Assembly: GCA_027011725.1 (NCBI GenBank)
Contig: JALUZQ010000056.1
Coordinates: forward strand, 1-11,929
From: Sulfurimonas sp.
GTDB lineage: Bacteria; Campylobacterota; Campylobacteria; Campylobacterales; Sulfurimonadaceae
Direction: 5' to 3'
DNA length: 11,929 bases
Below, one piece after another: positions 6,911 to 11,929 of the stretch. The position numbers and the translations under genes were made by a program. The notes under the pieces were generated by a model. That model was given only the letters and a program-made list of their open reading frames with translations. It had not been told where the DNA came from and did no database searches. Each line of letters begins with the position of its first letter. Within the stretch, counting starts at the first letter, position 1.

Positions 6911-7261
6911 TTATACTAATTCAATAAACGCCATTGGTGTAGCATCACCACGACGAGTACGAGTTCTAGTAATTCTAGTATATCCACCAGCACGATCAAC
7001 GTACTTAGGAGCGATCTCATTTACTAGAGTTTTTGTTGCTTCTTTGTTTTGAAGCGCAGCGAATACTGCTCTGTGTGCATTTGAGTCATTTTTACCAGCA
7101 GTAGTAATCAGTTTCTCAACATAAGAACGAAGTTCTTTTGCTTTAACAGCAGTAGTTTCAATTTTACCATGTTCAATTAACGAAATGCTAAGGTTCGCCA
7201 AAAGTGCCTTACGGTGAGCACTTGTACGACCTAGTTTACGATATCCATGACGATGTCTCAT
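6911..7261 (-). CDS. rplQ: 50S ribosomal protein L17
   Basis: Large-subunit protein L17, 116 residues, the usual bacterial core length. It starts with the invariant [24 protein letters not shown] and ends with the conserved GGYTRI and [15 protein letters not shown]17 contacts 23S rRNA near the peptide exit side. It is the last gene of the alpha operon, 23 bases after rpoA, with AGAGGAA as ribosome binding site, and is followed by the terminator hairpin at 6873-6898. Confidence 0.98.
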
Positions 7262-7284: not shown

Positions 7285-8277
7285 TTATGCGGCTTCAATT
7301 TTCTTTTTTAATGCAGTTACTACGTCGTCAGCCAAATCAGCACCAACTTCGAAACCGAACTCTTGTACTTTCTCTACGATCTCATCGTAAGATTTTTTTC
7401 CAAGATTTTTTACATTTTTCAGATCATTTGTACTCATAAGTACAATTTCACCTATTAATTTAATATTTGAGCGATCAAGACAGTTAAAACTACGCGCACT
7501 TAATCCTAAACTATCTATATTCGTAGTTAGTTTTTTCAAATCTGGTGACTCTTCAACTCTCTCTATTGTAGCAGGAGCTTTAATATTAATCTCTGAATTA
7601 AATACTGCAAGTTGTGCATACATTACTTCAAGTGAATTTCTAAACGCATCTACCGGAGAGATTTGTCCATCAGTTTTGATGTTCATTACAACTCTTTCAA
7701 AGTTAGGGTTGTCTTCGACCAAAACATTCTCAATTTTGTATGTTGCACTTCTTACAGGAGTGAAATAAGCATCAAGAGCGATATAATCATCATCAACTTC
7801 TTCCATAGTATCTTCACTTGCTACATATCCAATACCTTTGGCTATTTTCACACTGAAGTTCAATGTAGAGTCTTCATTGAGTGTTGCAAGTGGAGCTTCT
7901 GGAGTCATGACTTCTACATCATCATTACTTAGGTCGCTTCCTTTAATAGTACATGGACCTGCAAAGCTATAGTTTATTTCAGTCTCACTAACATCACCGT
8001 TTAATTTAAAACGGATCTCTTTAAGATTTAAAATAAAATCAGAGATATCTTCAAGCATACCACGAACAGAGTCGAATTCATGCTTAGCACCCTCGATTTT
8101 GATAGCTATTGGTGCATAACCAACAGAGCTGCTTAATAGAAAACGGCGAAGAGGATGAGCTAAAGAGATAGCGTACCCGCTTTCAAACGGATATGCCATA
8201 ATATTAGCTTCATTCTCACTAATTTGTTCTACCTCGAACTCTTGTGGAGCAAGTGGAGTAGTTTTAATTTTTTTCAT
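7285..8277 (-). CDS. rpoA: DNA-directed RNA polymerase subunit alpha
   Basis: Alpha subunit of RNA polymerase, 330 residues. The N-terminal domain (about 1-235), which dimerises and seats beta and beta', shows the conserved [17 protein letters not shown] segment and later [13 protein letters not shown]. The C-terminal domain (about 248-315) contacts upstream promoter DNA and regulators; residues matching E. coli R265, N268, C269, G296, K298 and S299 are all present as R262, N265, C266, G293, K295 and S296, an exact offset of three. UP-element binding should therefore be intact. It lies in the normal place between rpsD (26-base gap) and rplQ, so polymerase level is tied to ribosomal protein expression. 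The linker and tail (GADLADD...KKKIEAA) are more variable. Confidence 0.98.
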
Positions 8278-8303: not shown

Positions 8304-8930
8304 TTATTTCGAGTAAAGTTCAACGATTAAACGTTCTTCAACTGGAATAACAACTTCATCACGCTCAGGTAAACGAGTAAATATACCGAATACTTTTTCA
8401 GCATCAATGTCAACCCATGGAGCAAGACCAGTTTGGTTTGTAAGTTCAATAGCGCGTACAATTTGTGCATTTGCTTTACTTGCTTCTTTTACTTCAATTT
8501 TTTGACCAACTTTTACACGGTAAGAAGGAATATCTAATTTCTTCCCGTCTACTAAGATGTGACCATGTGTTACAAGTTGACGTGCAAATCTACGAGTAGA
8601 TGCAAATCCCATTCTGTAAACAACATTGTCTAATCTTTGTTCGATCAAAGTAATAAGGTTTGTACCTGTATTTCCTTCACGACGTTTTGCTTCAACGAAA
8701 AGAGCGTGGAATTGCTTTTCAGAAATACCATACATGAATTTCGCTTTTTGTTTCTCATTGAGTTGTAAACCATACTCAGAAACTTTTTTACGACGTTGAC
8801 CGTGTTGTCCCGGACCATATGGACGTTTCTCTAAAGCAGACTTCCCTGCTAGACGACGCTCACCTTTTAAGTTAAGGCTTACTCCAAATCTTCTTTCGAT
8901 TTTTTCTACTGGACCTCTATATCTTGCCAT
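8304..8930 (-). CDS. rpsD: 30S ribosomal protein S4
   Basis: Primary 16S rRNA-binding protein that starts assembly of the 5' domain of the small subunit; 208 residues, normal length. It opens with [16 protein letters not shown] and carries the [11 protein letters not shown] segment and, from about residue 98, the S4 RNA-binding domain ([19 protein letters not shown], [15 protein letters not shown]). There is no cysteine at all, so it is the zinc-free form. In E. coli S4 is the translational repressor of the alpha operon; this makes it the first candidate to act on the structured leader of rpmJ at 9843-9966. ATG at 8930 follows rpsK by 11 bases with GGAG upstream. Confidence 0.98.
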
Positions 8931-8941
8931 CAGTAATCTCC

Positions 8942-9334
8942 TTAAACTCTACGGCGCTTAGGTGCGCGACAACCGTTGTGTGGTAATGGTGTAACATCTT
9001 TCATGAATGTAACACGGATTCCTTCAATAGCACCAACAGATTTAACTGCAGTCTCACGTCCTGAACCTGGACCTTGAACTTTAATACCAAGTTCTTTAAT
9101 GCCATGTACTTGTGCTTTTGCTACTGCATCTTCTACAGCTGCTTGAGCAGCAAATGGAGTAGATTTTTTAGAACCTTTAAATCCTAAAGAACCAGCAGAA
9201 CTCCAAGCAATCATGTTACCCATTTCGTCTGTGATAGTTACAAGTGTATTGTTAAAAGATGCAGCAATGTGGATAATACCACGTGATACATTTTTCTTTA
9301 TTACTTTTTTTCTAACAGCTTTTCTTTTTGCCAT
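8942..9334 (-). CDS. rpsK: 30S ribosomal protein S11
   Basis: Small-subunit platform protein S11, 130 residues. The basic N-terminus ([19 protein letters not shown]) is followed by the conserved [31 protein letters not shown] and the C-terminal [13 protein letters not shown]. It binds the 16S rRNA central domain near the mRNA exit with S7 and S18. It follows rpsM by 10 bases with AAGGAATT as ribosome binding site, in the standard alpha operon order. Confidence 0.98.
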
Positions 9335-9344
9335 CTATAATTCC

Positions 9345-9707
9345 TTACGCTGCGCCGACAGTTTTACGTTTACCCTTACGAGTACGCGCATTTGTCTTAG
9401 TTTTTTGACCACGACATGGAAGACCACGACGGTGACGAAGACCACGATATGAACCAAGATCCATAAGTGCTTTAATGTCCATAGCTACTTTTTTACGTAA
9501 ATCACCCTCAACCATATGGTTTTCACGGATTTCAGCAGTAATTGCAGCTACATCAGCTTCATTGAGTTCATAAACTCTTTTGTTATAATCAATACCTGTA
9601 GCGTCTAATATTTGACGCGCAGTATGAAGACCAATTCCATAGATATATGTTAGACCATATTCTATACGTTTTTTCTTAGGTAAATCTACACCAGAAATAC
9701 GAGCCAT
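9345..9707 (-). CDS. rpsM: 30S ribosomal protein S13
   Basis: Small-subunit head protein S13, 120 residues, which contacts the P-site tRNA through its basic tail and forms bridges to L5. Conserved [14 protein letters not shown] at the start, [10 protein letters not shown], then [27 protein letters not shown] near the end, all present. ATG at 9707 lies two bases after the rpmJ stop; its ribosome binding site AAGGA (9713-9717) is inside the last codons of rpmJ, so the two are translationally coupled. Confidence 0.98.
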
Positions 9708-9709
9708 GG

Positions 9710-9823
9710 TTATCCTTGTCTCTGTTTATGTTTAGGGTTCTTGCAGATTACTCTTACAATACCTCTTCTTTTGATAACTTTACAGTCATCACACATCTTC
9801 TTTACTGAAGCACGTACTTTCAT
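9710..9823 (-). CDS. rpmJ: 50S ribosomal protein L36 (zinc-binding form)
   Basis: The smallest ribosomal protein, 37 residues, easily missed because of its size. The reading begins [19 protein letters not shown] and has the zinc knuckle C11-x2-C14-x12-C27-x4-H32 complete, so it is the zinc-containing version. ATG at 9823 has the strong site AGGAGA at 9830-9835, six bases upstream. It is the first gene of the operon: upstream is a roughly 140-base leader and a TATAAT box, then divergent nrdD. There is no infA, map or secY before it, so the alpha operon is separated from the spc operon here, as I recall for Campylobacter jejuni. Confidence 0.97.
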
Positions 9824-9842
9824 TGAAAGTCTCCTGTGGGAA

Positions 9843-9966
9843 CATCTTTACTGCCTCTAGGCAAGCACATAGTACTTGTTGTAACTTCGCTTGCCAATAC
9901 TTTTATCTGTGTAGATATTACATAGATAGAAATACTCTTTGCTTTGTTAAAACAGTAAAGTGGATG
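9843..9966 (-). ncRNA. Structured 5' leader of the rpmJ-rpsM-rpsK-rpsD-rpoA-rplQ operon (candidate autoregulatory RNA)
   Basis: The transcript between the TATAAT box and the rpmJ ribosome binding site can fold into a closed junction. A terminal helix pairs CUUUACUG (9960-9953) with CAGUAAAG (9853-9846), eight pairs, with CAU/AUG able to extend it across a small bulge. Inside are a hairpin at 9904-9928 (nine pairs, one A-C mismatch, 5-base loop) and one at 9860-9895 (GGCAAGC with GCUUGCC, 22-base loop). The right arm of the last can instead pair with GGCAG at 9852-9856 to form a tight UAGA-loop hairpin, which would break both it and the terminal helix. The 3' side of the helix ends about ten bases before the ribosome binding site. 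Feedback control by S4 is inferred from the E. coli alpha operon; the fold itself differs and I do not recognise it. Confidence 0.5.
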
Positions 9967-9969
9967 GGA

Positions 9970-9975
9970 ATTATA
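9970..9975 (-). promoter_or_regulatory. -10 box of the alpha ribosomal operon
   Basis: A perfect TATAAT on the minus strand (in GAGTATAATTCCC), with an A/T-rich region upstream and no clear -35 box. The transcript would begin near 9961-9965, so the terminal helix of the leader starts almost at the RNA 5' end. Confidence 0.75.
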
Positions 9976-10021
9976 CTCAAATTAATGTAAAACTTTTATT
10001 AAGCTTATATCTTCTTTTGAA

Positions 10022-10066
10022 AAATGACACAAAAATGACACAAATTCTTATAAGTGCTTAACACTT
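10022..10066 (+). promoter_or_regulatory. Tandem 11-base repeats and a palindrome upstream of nrdD (candidate operator)
   Basis: AAATGACACAA occurs twice in tandem, at 10022-10032 and 10033-10043, with a period of 11 bases, about one helical turn. It is followed by the palindrome AAGTG-N5-CACTT at 10052-10066, just upstream of the TATAAA box. The layout suggests binding of one or two regulators controlling nrdD, perhaps in response to oxygen or nucleotide supply. It does not match the NrdR box or the FNR site as I know them. Confidence 0.45.
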
Positions 10067-10071
10067 TTTGC

Positions 10072-10077
10072 TATAAA
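10072..10077 (+). promoter_or_regulatory. -10 box of nrdD
   Basis: TATAAA in GCTATAAACTACC, 27 bases before the nrdD ATG. Transcription would begin near 10083-10085, leaving about 20 bases of leader including the GAGGAG ribosome binding site at 10093-10098. Confidence 0.55.
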
Positions 10078-10104
10078 CTACCCAAATCACTTGAGGAGTA
10101 GTTC

Positions 10105-11929
10105 ATGGTTGAGTACATTTTAAAACGTGATGGAACATATAAACAATTTCACTCATATAAGATTGAAGATGCCATTCAAAAAGCATTTGTGAGCGAAAAT
10201 GTTGTTTATGATGAAGCTATATATATCAATGTTTTAGAAAAGCTCGAGCATAAACGTGCTGTTGCCGTAGAAGATGTACAAGACCTCATCGAATATGAAC
10301 TCTATAAAGGCAGACACTTTGATGTCATGCGCTCTTTTATGCTCTATCGACACATGCATAAGATGCAAAGAGAGAATCTGCTCGATGAGGACACAACCTA
10401 CATCAACTCTACGCAAACCATTGAGGAGTATATAAATGGAAGTGATTGGAGAATCAAAGCAAACTCAAACACGGGCTACTCCAATGCAGGCTTGGTCAAC
10501 AATACTGCGGGAAAAGTGATCGCAAATTATTGGCTGGACAAGATCTACTCAAAAGAAGAGGGGTATGCGCATAGAAATGGGGACTATCACATACATGATC
10601 TCGACTGCTTGAGTGGTTATTGTGCCGGCTGGAGTCTACGGGTTCTTTTAGATGAAGGCTTTAACGGAGTAAGAGGAAGAGTGGAGAGCTCTGCGCCCAA
10701 ACATTTTAGAGAAGCTCTTGGGCAGATGGCAAATTTCTTAGGAATTTTACAAAGCGAATGGGCGGGAGCACAGGCTTTTTCCTCTTTTGACACCTATTTG
10801 GCACCTTATCTATTTAAAGACCAACTCAATTATAAGGAGGTAAAGAAAAGCATTCGTAGTTTCATATATAACCTTAACGTTCCTGCACGATGGGGACAAT
10901 CACCTTTTACAAACATCACTATAGATTGGAGCGTTCCTGAAGATCTGAAGGATCAGATTCCAACAAGTAAGCAAAGACATCTCTTTGAAGACATTTTTGA
11001 TGCCAATCTAAGATTCAAAGCACAAGAGAGAGGGGTATCTTCTCTCACCGATATGACATACAAACATTTTCAACAAGAGATGAATATGATAAATAGAGCT
11101 TACTATGAGGTTATGACGGAGGGGGACAAAACTGGACAACCCTTCACATTTCCTATACCTACCGTCAATATCACTGAAGATTTTGACTGGTACGGCGAAA
11201 ATACAGACCTGCTGTTTGAAAATACGGCAAAAATTGGCTCCTCCTACTTTCAAAATTTCATAGGGAGCCAATATAAACGCGATGAGAACGGTAACTTAAT
11301 AGAGAACGAAGAAGCATACAAACCCGGACATGTAAGAAGTATGTGCTGCAGACTACAGCTTGATTTAAGAGAACTTCTTAAACGAGGCGGTGGCCTGTTT
11401 GGCAGTGCAGAGATGACGGGAAGCATAGGCGTTGTGACCATCAATATGGCGCGGCTTGGCTTTTTACACAAAGGCGACAAAGAAGGACTCCTTGCAAAAC
11501 TCGACACTTTGATGGAACATGCGAAATCTACACTTGAGAAGAAACGGGTGTTTATACAAGAGATGTATGACAGAGGGCTTTTCCCCTACACCAAAAGGTA
11601 TCTTCCGGGATTTCACAACCACTTCTCCACCATCGGGGTAAACGGTATCAATGAGATGATCTTAAACTTTAGCGACAAAAACGAAGATATCACCAGTGAA
11701 AAAGGGATGGAGCTCGCCGTAGAGGTACTTAATCATATGCGAGAGAGAATGATAGCCTTTCAAGAGGAGACCGGTAATCTCTACAATCTCGAAGCAACCC
11801 CGGCAGAAGGAACAACCTACAGATTTGCCAAAGAGGATAAAAAACGCTTTGGTGAGAAGATCATCCAAGCGGGTGCGGGAGAGAACATCTACTACACCAA
11901 CTCTTCTCAGATTCCGGTTGATTATACAG
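10105..11929 (+). CDS. nrdD: Anaerobic (class III) ribonucleoside-triphosphate reductase, N-terminal 608 residues; runs off right edge
   Basis: Glycyl-radical enzyme reducing ribonucleoside triphosphates to deoxy forms without oxygen. The frame is open from ATG 10105 (GAGGAG six bases before it) to the window edge. Residues 1 to about 95 are an ATP-cone (opening YILKRDGTYKQF, then AVEDVQDLIE), the allosteric activity switch. The catalytic barrel follows: HIHDLD, DCLSGYCAGW with C168 and C173, NLNVPARWG and FPIPTVNIT. Then comes SMCCRLQLD with paired C414/C415, and GSIGVVTINMARLG, LPGFHNHFSTIGVNG and AEGTTYRFA. C173 probably corresponds to the thiyl-radical cysteine region. The glycine-radical loop at the C-terminus is outside the window, as is any nrdG activase gene. 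The paired cysteines suggest the thioredoxin-type rather than formate-using subtype, but this is an inference from memory. Confidence 0.95.
   Translation, partial: MVEYILKRDGTYKQFHSYKIEDAIQKAFVSENVVYDEAIYINVLEKLEHKRAVAVEDVQDLIEYELYKGRHFDVMRSFMLYRHMHKMQRENLLDEDTTYINSTQTIEEYINGSDWRIKANSNTGYSNAGLVNNTAGKVIANYWLDKIYSKEEGYAHRNGDYHIHDLDCLSGYCAGWSLRVLLDEGFNGVRGRVESSAPKHFREALGQMANFLGILQSEWAGAQAFSSFDTYLAPYLFKDQLNYKEVKKSIRSFIYNLNVPARWGQSPFTNITIDWSVPEDLKDQIPTSKQRHLFEDIFDANLRFKAQERGVSSLTDMTYKHFQQEMNMINRAYYEVMTEGDKTGQPFTFPIPTVNITEDFDWYGENTDLLFENTAKIGSSYFQNFIGSQYKRDENGNLIENEEAYKPGHVRSMCCRLQLDLRELLKRGGGLFGSAEMTGSIGVVTINMARLGFLHKGDKEGLLAKLDTLMEHAKSTLEKKRVFIQEMYDRGLFPYTKRYLPGFHNHFSTIGVNGINEMILNFSDKNEDITSEKGMELAVEVLNHMRERMIAFQEETGNLYNLEATPAEGTTYRFAKEDKKRFGEKIIQAGAGENIYYTNSSQIPVDYT

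Follow-up and report, generated by a model that had tools for sequence, protein, structure and literature searches.

A conserved folded RNA leader stands in front of rpmJ, the first gene of the alpha ribosomal operon, in Sulfurimonas and in many other Campylobacterota. This class of leader is genuine and conserved, and the searches made turned up no description of it. It probably represents a ribosomal-protein leader class without a match in Rfam 15, in which one of the operon products, S4 being the likeliest, would bind the mRNA and repress its translation. An autogenous function as such appears very likely, and S4 as its ligand, proposed by analogy with other groups, is held with modest confidence. 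Comparisons of sequences yield the fold, the pseudoknot, its position, the promoter spacing and the operon association; the binding of a protein, its identity as S4, the repression and the mode of repression are what we infer.

Leader fold and operon context

The window analysed here is a stretch of 11,929 nucleotides from a Sulfurimonas sp. contig (JALUZQ010000056.1); the rpsM of a named Sulfurimonas MAG shares 95% identity with that of the window, in keeping with this genus. On its minus strand the gene order is rpmJ-rpsM-rpsK-rpsD-rpoA-rplQ, with a leader of about 140 nt in front; the identities of rpsK, rpoA and rplQ are those that we assume from sequence resemblance. The leader, situated between a TATAAT box and rpmJ, folds into a closed three-way junction of the helices P1, P2 and P3, with the following features.

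9970..9975, minus strand: TATAAT, −10 box of the leader promoter; predicted transcription start at about 9961-9964, just ahead of P1
9949..9960, minus strand: 5′ strand of P1, the closing helix, CUUUACUGUUUU
9937..9948, minus strand: linker J1/2, with AAAG at its end in the window (GAAG in other families)
9896..9936, minus strand: hairpin P2, AGUAUUU...AAGUAUU, from folding and covariation
9860..9895, minus strand: hairpin P3, GGCAAGC...GCUUGCC, directly abutting P2; GG/CC base invariant
9846..9857, minus strand: 3′ strand of P1, GAGGCAGUAAAG, ending 22 nt before the rpmJ start codon
9831..9835, minus strand: Shine-Dalgarno sequence AGGAG of rpmJ, read from the sequence
9710..9823, minus strand: rpmJ (bL36), first gene of the operon, start codon 9823-9821
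9345..9707, minus strand: rpsM (uS13)
8942..9334, minus strand: rpsK (uS11), named by sequence resemblance
8304..8930, minus strand: rpsD (uS4), gene of the likeliest predicted ligand, with a full-length match in 29/29 genomes searched
7285..8277, minus strand: rpoA, named by sequence resemblance
6911..7261, minus strand: rplQ (bL17), named by sequence resemblance

Folding of positions 9843-9966 (minus strand) gave a minimum free energy of −35.8 kcal/mol against −20.7 (sd 2.9) for shuffled sequences, corresponding to a z of −5.19 with none of 200 shuffles as good. With the flanks up to the start codon, ribosome-binding site included, z was −3.59 (2/200 shuffles as good), and a 185-nt fold reaching into rpmJ gave z −2.82 (2/200 shuffles), its minimum-energy structure retaining P1 as described. 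The original prediction had seen a TATAAT box, a perfect 8-base complementarity of the leader ends and two enclosed hairpins. The box lies at 9975-9970 (minus strand), and the complementarity is present in the sequence as claimed (CUUUACUG, 9960-9953, with CAGUAAAG, 9853-9846). Both hairpins were also found, P3 at 9860-9895 as proposed and P2 longer than proposed, extending over 9936-9896 and not 9904-9928 alone.

A TANNAT box was located 9 nt before P1 in 42 of the 43 genus leaders and 8 nt before it in the remaining one, against a shuffled expectation of 9.85/43, and in other families such a box occurred within the 50 nt examined in 95/100 leaders (shuffled expectation 41). Given the conserved spacing of the −10 box to P1, transcription should begin at the foot of P1, and the box 9 nt before P1 argues against a start downstream of 9950, as far as starts can be predicted from sequence. 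The leader promoter was not listed by a sigma-70 scan requiring also a −35 hexamer. No terminator-like site was found in 9600-10150, so that control is likelier to be exerted at translation.

Beyond the leader, a divergent gene on the plus strand (10104-11929), which looks to us like an anaerobic ribonucleotide reductase NrdD, begins about 130 bases past the −10 box. Lysine codons 8 and 9 of rpmJ (codons 6-9 occupy 9797-9808, minus strand) are mostly AAG in the compared sequences, and AAG is the rarer lysine codon in the six operon genes of the window (15 AAG vs 73 AAA).

Occurrence across the Campylobacterota

The gene rpsM was searched for in 99 genomes, including that of the window, and found in 87, many of which share an upstream architecture made of a −10 box, P1, the GAAG linker, P2 abutting P3, the return strand of P1 and a Shine-Dalgarno sequence. 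Nineteen of 25 hand-anchored leaders, all from families other than that of the window, formed the covariance model R1 and likewise alignment A2, and 19 leaders of the genus Sulfurimonas without long inserts formed model R2 and alignment A3.

Under stricter filters than those applied to single loci, R1 matched 190/397 Campylobacterota genomes at E 0.01 or better, belonging to 29/68 genera; 11 of these 190 genomes were the sources of R1 training leaders, and every matching genome held one site save one with two. An rpmJ motif was present at 89 of the 90 loci that were fetched from the 190 matches. R2 matched 105/120 genomes of the genus Sulfurimonas, and among the 60 genomes common to the rpsM and R2 searches, rpsM was found in 50 and the leader in all 50. 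These figures bear out the expectation of a conserved, structured alpha-operon leader before rpmJ in Campylobacterota. The second leader match in one genome (G485) sits at a contig end, and a tandem leader in another (G004) has N between its copies and was taken for an assembly artefact.

Within the genus, R1 gave a different picture. No Sulfurimonas genus genome among those listed was matched at E 0.01, 20 of the 207 non-matching genomes being listed, and the leader of the window was matched weakly (E 0.037). When applied to the 49 genus loci, R1 matched 11, the window included, at E 0.0014 to 0.52 and always on the leader, and the other 38 gave none; the link between the genus and the other families that can be drawn from sequence through R1 alone is weak. 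The genus set (L001-L049, L001 being the window) contained 47 loci with an rpmJ match, L029 and L038 being without one by the first motif. Four loci (L005, L028, L035 and L041) failed the P1 pattern, which left 43 genus leaders, and the end of P1 was obtained for 41.

A model match was obtained in 17 of the 23 sampled families, as labelled in the sample, one large family among them presumably being the Campylobacteraceae. In six families (f5, f12, f13, f19, f21 and f22) the sole match was a training leader found by eye, and families f2, f8, f14, f15, f17 and f23 gave no model match despite the presence of rpsM. Among 18 named Campylobacterota loci, nine were matched by R1 at E < 1e-5 (two Sulfurovum, four "Campylobacteraceae bacterium" and three "Campylobacterales bacterium" MAGs) and two Sulfurimonas records were matched by R2. 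Two Helicobacter records, two Helicobacteraceae MAGs and Thiovulum had no R1 or R2 match, though a long P1 together with P2 and P3 could be recognized by eye in Thiovulum, and two further records had little or nothing upstream of rpsM. Since 6/23 families and the two Helicobacter records were without a leader match, the control would be dispensable or replaced there. None of 19 named out-group rpsM loci matched R1 or R2 at E 1, and the leader, as far as tested, appears to occur in Campylobacterota only.

Covariation of the helices

Compensatory change had been proposed as the check on the three helices, and it is strong in P2 and P3. In A2, from which the structure itself had been read, 94.8% of cells pair and 17/22 pairs change on both sides, with a covariation score of 0.564 against 0.215 for shuffled columns (reached by 0/500 shuffles) and at most 0.157 for slid versions of the structure. 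Alignment A5, consisting of 100 leader loci with near-duplicates excluded, leans towards the R1 structure because its leaders were aligned to R1; there 94.9% of cells pair, 20/22 pairs of P2 and P3 are two-sided, and the score was 0.575 against 0.173 (0/500 shuffles; slid at most 0.132). Alignment A6, which comprises 74 of these 100 leaders selected by length only and was aligned with MAFFT and so not fitted to the model, still gave 0.350 for the whole structure against 0.139 (0/500 shuffles). The shuffles preserve the make-up of columns and not descent, so the count of paired cells overstates the number of independent events. In the genus alignment 93.5% of cells pair, 5/31 pairs are two-sided and the score was 0.136 against 0.109 (0/500 shuffles), a small signal because the sequence is too conserved there.

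Compensatory change is thus established for P2 and P3, and P1 has to be divided. In the genus alignment 96.9% of P1 cells are paired, with GC/AU/GU exchange at pair 5-127; in the other families of A6, 74% are paired and the score was reached by 88/500 shuffles, in part because the joint of P1 varies in length. An energy test in other families showed a modest preference of P1 strands for their own partners (−9.25 vs −8.51 swapped, sd 0.20; 0/60). Since P2 and P3 carry compensatory changes and the leader is conserved, neither an absence of covariation nor poor conservation among relatives, the outcomes that the original prediction regarded as fatal, was what we found.

Some unpaired and junction positions are conserved as well. 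The GG/CC base of P3 is present in 100/100 rows of A5, and GAAG occupies the J1/2 site in 94/100 leaders of other families. A nearly invariant UC (often UCA) occurs on the 3′ side of the P3 loop in the leaders of other families (A2, A6) and is absent from the Sulfurimonas genus alignment; it could possibly be a tertiary or protein contact.

Pseudoknot, closing helix and spacer

Outside Sulfurimonas, the loop of P2 (for the most part NCACU or NCACC) forms a pseudoknot with a complementary strand that immediately precedes the Shine-Dalgarno sequence. Its pairings include CCACU/AGUGG, GCACU/AGUGC, GCACC/GGUGC, UCACU/AGUGA, CCGCU/AGCGG and ACACC/GGUGU and vary even within one family (CCACU, UCACU and CCGCU in f11). 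On A6, 92.8% of the pseudoknot cells are paired, with a score of 0.259 against 0.091 (0/500 shuffles; slid at most 0.075) and with CG, GC, UA, AU and GU all seen at the first pair. The pairing of a loop with its own spacer also beats swapped combinations (−10.6 vs −8.2, sd 0.23; 0/60). The start codon was located in 98/100 leaders of A5, and in 73 of these 98 the 3′ strand of the best-scoring pseudoknot stops 20-24 nt short of it, whereas in 18 of the other 25 the strand is > 30 nt away; the automatic choice takes the best-scoring helix, which in one leader (L072) differs from the CCACU/AGUGG visible by eye. Families f9, f13 and f16 had no convincing pseudoknot among the leaders examined.

In the genus Sulfurimonas the corresponding signal is weak and not comparable to that of the other families (−5.75 own vs −5.25 swapped, 7/200 swaps as good, 37/43 leaders parsed). 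There, in 30/41 leaders, 21-23 nt separate the end of the longer P1 from the start codon; the distance is 24 or 26 nt in two of the remaining leaders and 91-147 nt in nine that carry inserted sequence. Judging from these positions, the two closing devices would be set at one working distance. Whether this reflects a phylum-wide S4-type leader with its own fold, in which the clamp was swapped (a pseudoknot, or an extended P1 in Sulfurimonas and, by eye, Thiovulum) and the junction core and the protein were kept, is in our judgement evenly balanced.

The spacer between the leader and the start codon seems to tolerate insertions, since spacers > 100 nt, often repeat-like, occur in other families too (L058, L088, L106, L199, L202, L247 and L252). 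Many genus leaders contain a dispersed element whose length is very roughly 60-100 nt (by eye, CUCACC..GGUG.AGCUUUAGUGACUGA..GUGAGA); it sits ahead of rpmJ, either within the loop of P3 or in the stretch from P1 to the Shine-Dalgarno sequence (for example L006, L015, L018, L019, L030-L032, L035-L037, L039-L041, L045 and L049). An exact 15-mer of its core was found in 9/41 genus genomes, also outside the operon, and a search of Rfam at E 0.5 gave no match in 13 leader loci, several of them with the dispersed insert.

Alternative pairings and rRNA mimicry

The leader had further been described as possibly switching, through an alternative hairpin that uses 9852-9856. This hairpin (GCC-UAGA-GGC) does exist in the window, but the switching part of the proposal is left unconfirmed because the hairpin is not conserved, being present in 4/41 genus leaders, the window's own among the four. 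The 5′ strand of P1 has a second possible partner within rpmJ, CAGUAAAG in codons 6-8, which is preferred by the minimum-energy fold of one stretch into rpmJ. A switch through these codons was rejected: the exact TCAGTAAAG is present in 23/43 genus genes, the 185-nt minimum-energy fold keeps P1, and AAG at these lysines is common also where a family has a different P1. A hairpin at the start codon (ACUUUC/GAAAGU) paired no better in the genus with its own strands than with swapped ones (289/300 swaps as good), and in other families own pairs were somewhat better than swapped (7/300).

Concerning mimicry of rRNA, R1 found no consistent site in 16S (9 loci) or 23S rRNA (5 loci), and the several occurrences of GAAG in 16S rRNA are as expected of a 4-base motif in 1.5 kb. 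The search of Rfam that had been recommended for the leader gave no credible match in the window or in the 13 leader loci; in the window, six matches were obtained up to E 5, all under the family cut-offs.

Proposed mechanism and its alternatives

Given the features above, it is reasonable to suggest that the transcript would start almost at P1 and fold into a three-way junction, in which P1 leads into the GAAG-type linker, P2 is stacked on P3, and a short joint returns to P1. The junction core formed by GAAG and the GG/CC base of P3 could then be bound by one of the operon products, by precedent most likely S4. The bound protein would lock the closing element, which is the pseudoknot of P2 loop and spacer in most leader-bearing families and the extended P1 in Sulfurimonas. 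Once locked, the fold would reach to within 20-24 nt of the start codon, at the expected edge of the 30S footprint, and thereby block or trap the ribosome. As a result, translation of rpmJ would be lowered, and that of the rest of the operon would be lowered by coupling. Because the pseudoknot lies upstream of the ribosome site, steric blocking is as likely as entrapment.

As a predicted ligand, S4 is not distinguished by the data from S13, S11, L36 or L17. It is favoured on two grounds. Other groups have known or predicted S4 leaders, and in 29/29 genomes rpsD closely follows rpsM or the leader: it was found near and downstream of rpsM in 20 and downstream of the leader match in the remaining nine, 4/29 genomes being from families without a leader match. 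The same autogenous leader could be read by another operon product, which we regard as unlikely; the genes of S13, S11, L36 and L17 all lie behind the leader, with rpmJ the first. In the part of the literature on such leaders that was covered, the ligand is often not the product of the first gene and prediction is less confident for multi-gene operons, but the alpha-operon or rpsD leaders given there have S4 as their confirmed or likely ligand (PMC7247131). For L36 in particular, one genus genome (G024, locus L029) keeps the leader though the rpmJ that follows lacks its 5′ half, which either reflects a loss of L36, speaking weakly against this ligand, or is perhaps an assembly error.

Two readings dispense with feedback by an operon product. 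The RNA might be a constitutive structure, serving as a ribosome standby site, a target of S1 or a stabiliser of the 5′ end; P1 starts almost at the predicted 5′ end and could stabilise the RNA, and pseudoknots can be high-affinity targets of S1 according to the portion of PMC10931766 consulted. The nearly invariant unpaired GAAG (94/100) and the tightly limited distances from the start codon suggest specific recognition instead, and the leader is nearly always single-copy per genome and stands before this one operon where examined, so that we consider a structure without feedback rather improbable. Less probable still is a riboswitch, or a leader read by another factor such as IF-1 or a metabolite. 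A compact junction with a pseudoknot beside the ribosome site would fit riboswitches too, and an infA motif (the IF-1 gene) lies upstream in several other families, none being found upstream in the Sulfurimonas genus loci. This reading is opposed by the occurrence of the leader before one ribosomal-protein operon, by the lack of a terminator-like site in 9600-10150 and by the lack of a credible Rfam match.

Comparison with known leaders

The S4 operator of the E. coli alpha operon corresponds to the Rfam family Alpha_RBS (RF00140). RF00140 gave no match in the window up to E 5, nor in the 13 leader loci at E 0.5. The leader adds to the unrelated RNA folds that precede the alpha operon in different groups. 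The exchange of a pseudoknot for a terminal helix at similar distance could serve as a natural experiment on how a leader controls the ribosome.

In the literature searched, no alpha-operon leader of Campylobacterota was found (the covered parts of PMC7247131, PMC11109978, PMC2864571, PMC3847290, PMC10931766 and PMC3087516), and the main text of PMC7247131 contains no word starting with "Campylobacter" or "Epsilon". According to the portion of PMC3087516 covered, an S4 class without a zinc site, marked by EXXE...RXXXXS, occurs only in Epsilonproteobacteria, where a second, zinc-type group is also mentioned. The S4 of the window carries EKIE...RLAGKS. A leader of their own matching the zinc-site-less S4 class would therefore offer a testable case of co-evolution.

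The covered part of PMC7247131 describes S4 leaders, some known and some predicted, on alpha-operon or rpsD mRNAs of Gammaproteobacteria, Firmicutes, Clostridia, Bacteroidia, Flavobacteria and Fusobacteriales. In E. coli, the S4 pseudoknot comprises the ribosome site of rpsM and acts by entrapment, in the account given by part of PMC10931766. The leader described here is like that operator in the kind of operon and, outside Sulfurimonas, in a pseudoknot near the first ribosome site, and unlike it in being a three-way junction before rpmJ, with a pseudoknot whose end mostly lies 20-24 nt ahead of the start codon. A pseudoknot enclosing the first ribosome site, the trait of Alpha_RBS, was not observed, as it ends upstream in 73/98 leaders and the genus signal is weak. 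The original prediction of a fold unrelated to that of E. coli agrees with the lack of an Rfam match and with the position before rpmJ, but it went too far in one respect, in which the two leaders resemble each other because a pseudoknot is used outside the genus.

A shared GUAA motif, believed to mimic rRNA, marks the S4 leaders in Firmicutes and Fusobacteriales (PMC7247131, covered part); they are alike in lying on an mRNA that encodes S4, and unlike in this motif, since GUAA is absent from the A6 consensus. The S4 leaders of Clostridia, Bacteroidia and Flavobacteria (Eckert and Weinberg 2020) were likewise predicted by comparison before alpha-operon genes and show no clear rRNA mimicry. The motifs of Bacteroidia and Flavobacteria, compared through the description in the covered text of PMC7247131, are hairpins, unlike the three-way junction found here. 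Finally, the mycobacterial rpsO pseudoknot bound by S15, as described in the covered part of PMC10931766, differs in protein and gene and is alike in the placement of its pseudoknot upstream of the ribosome site.
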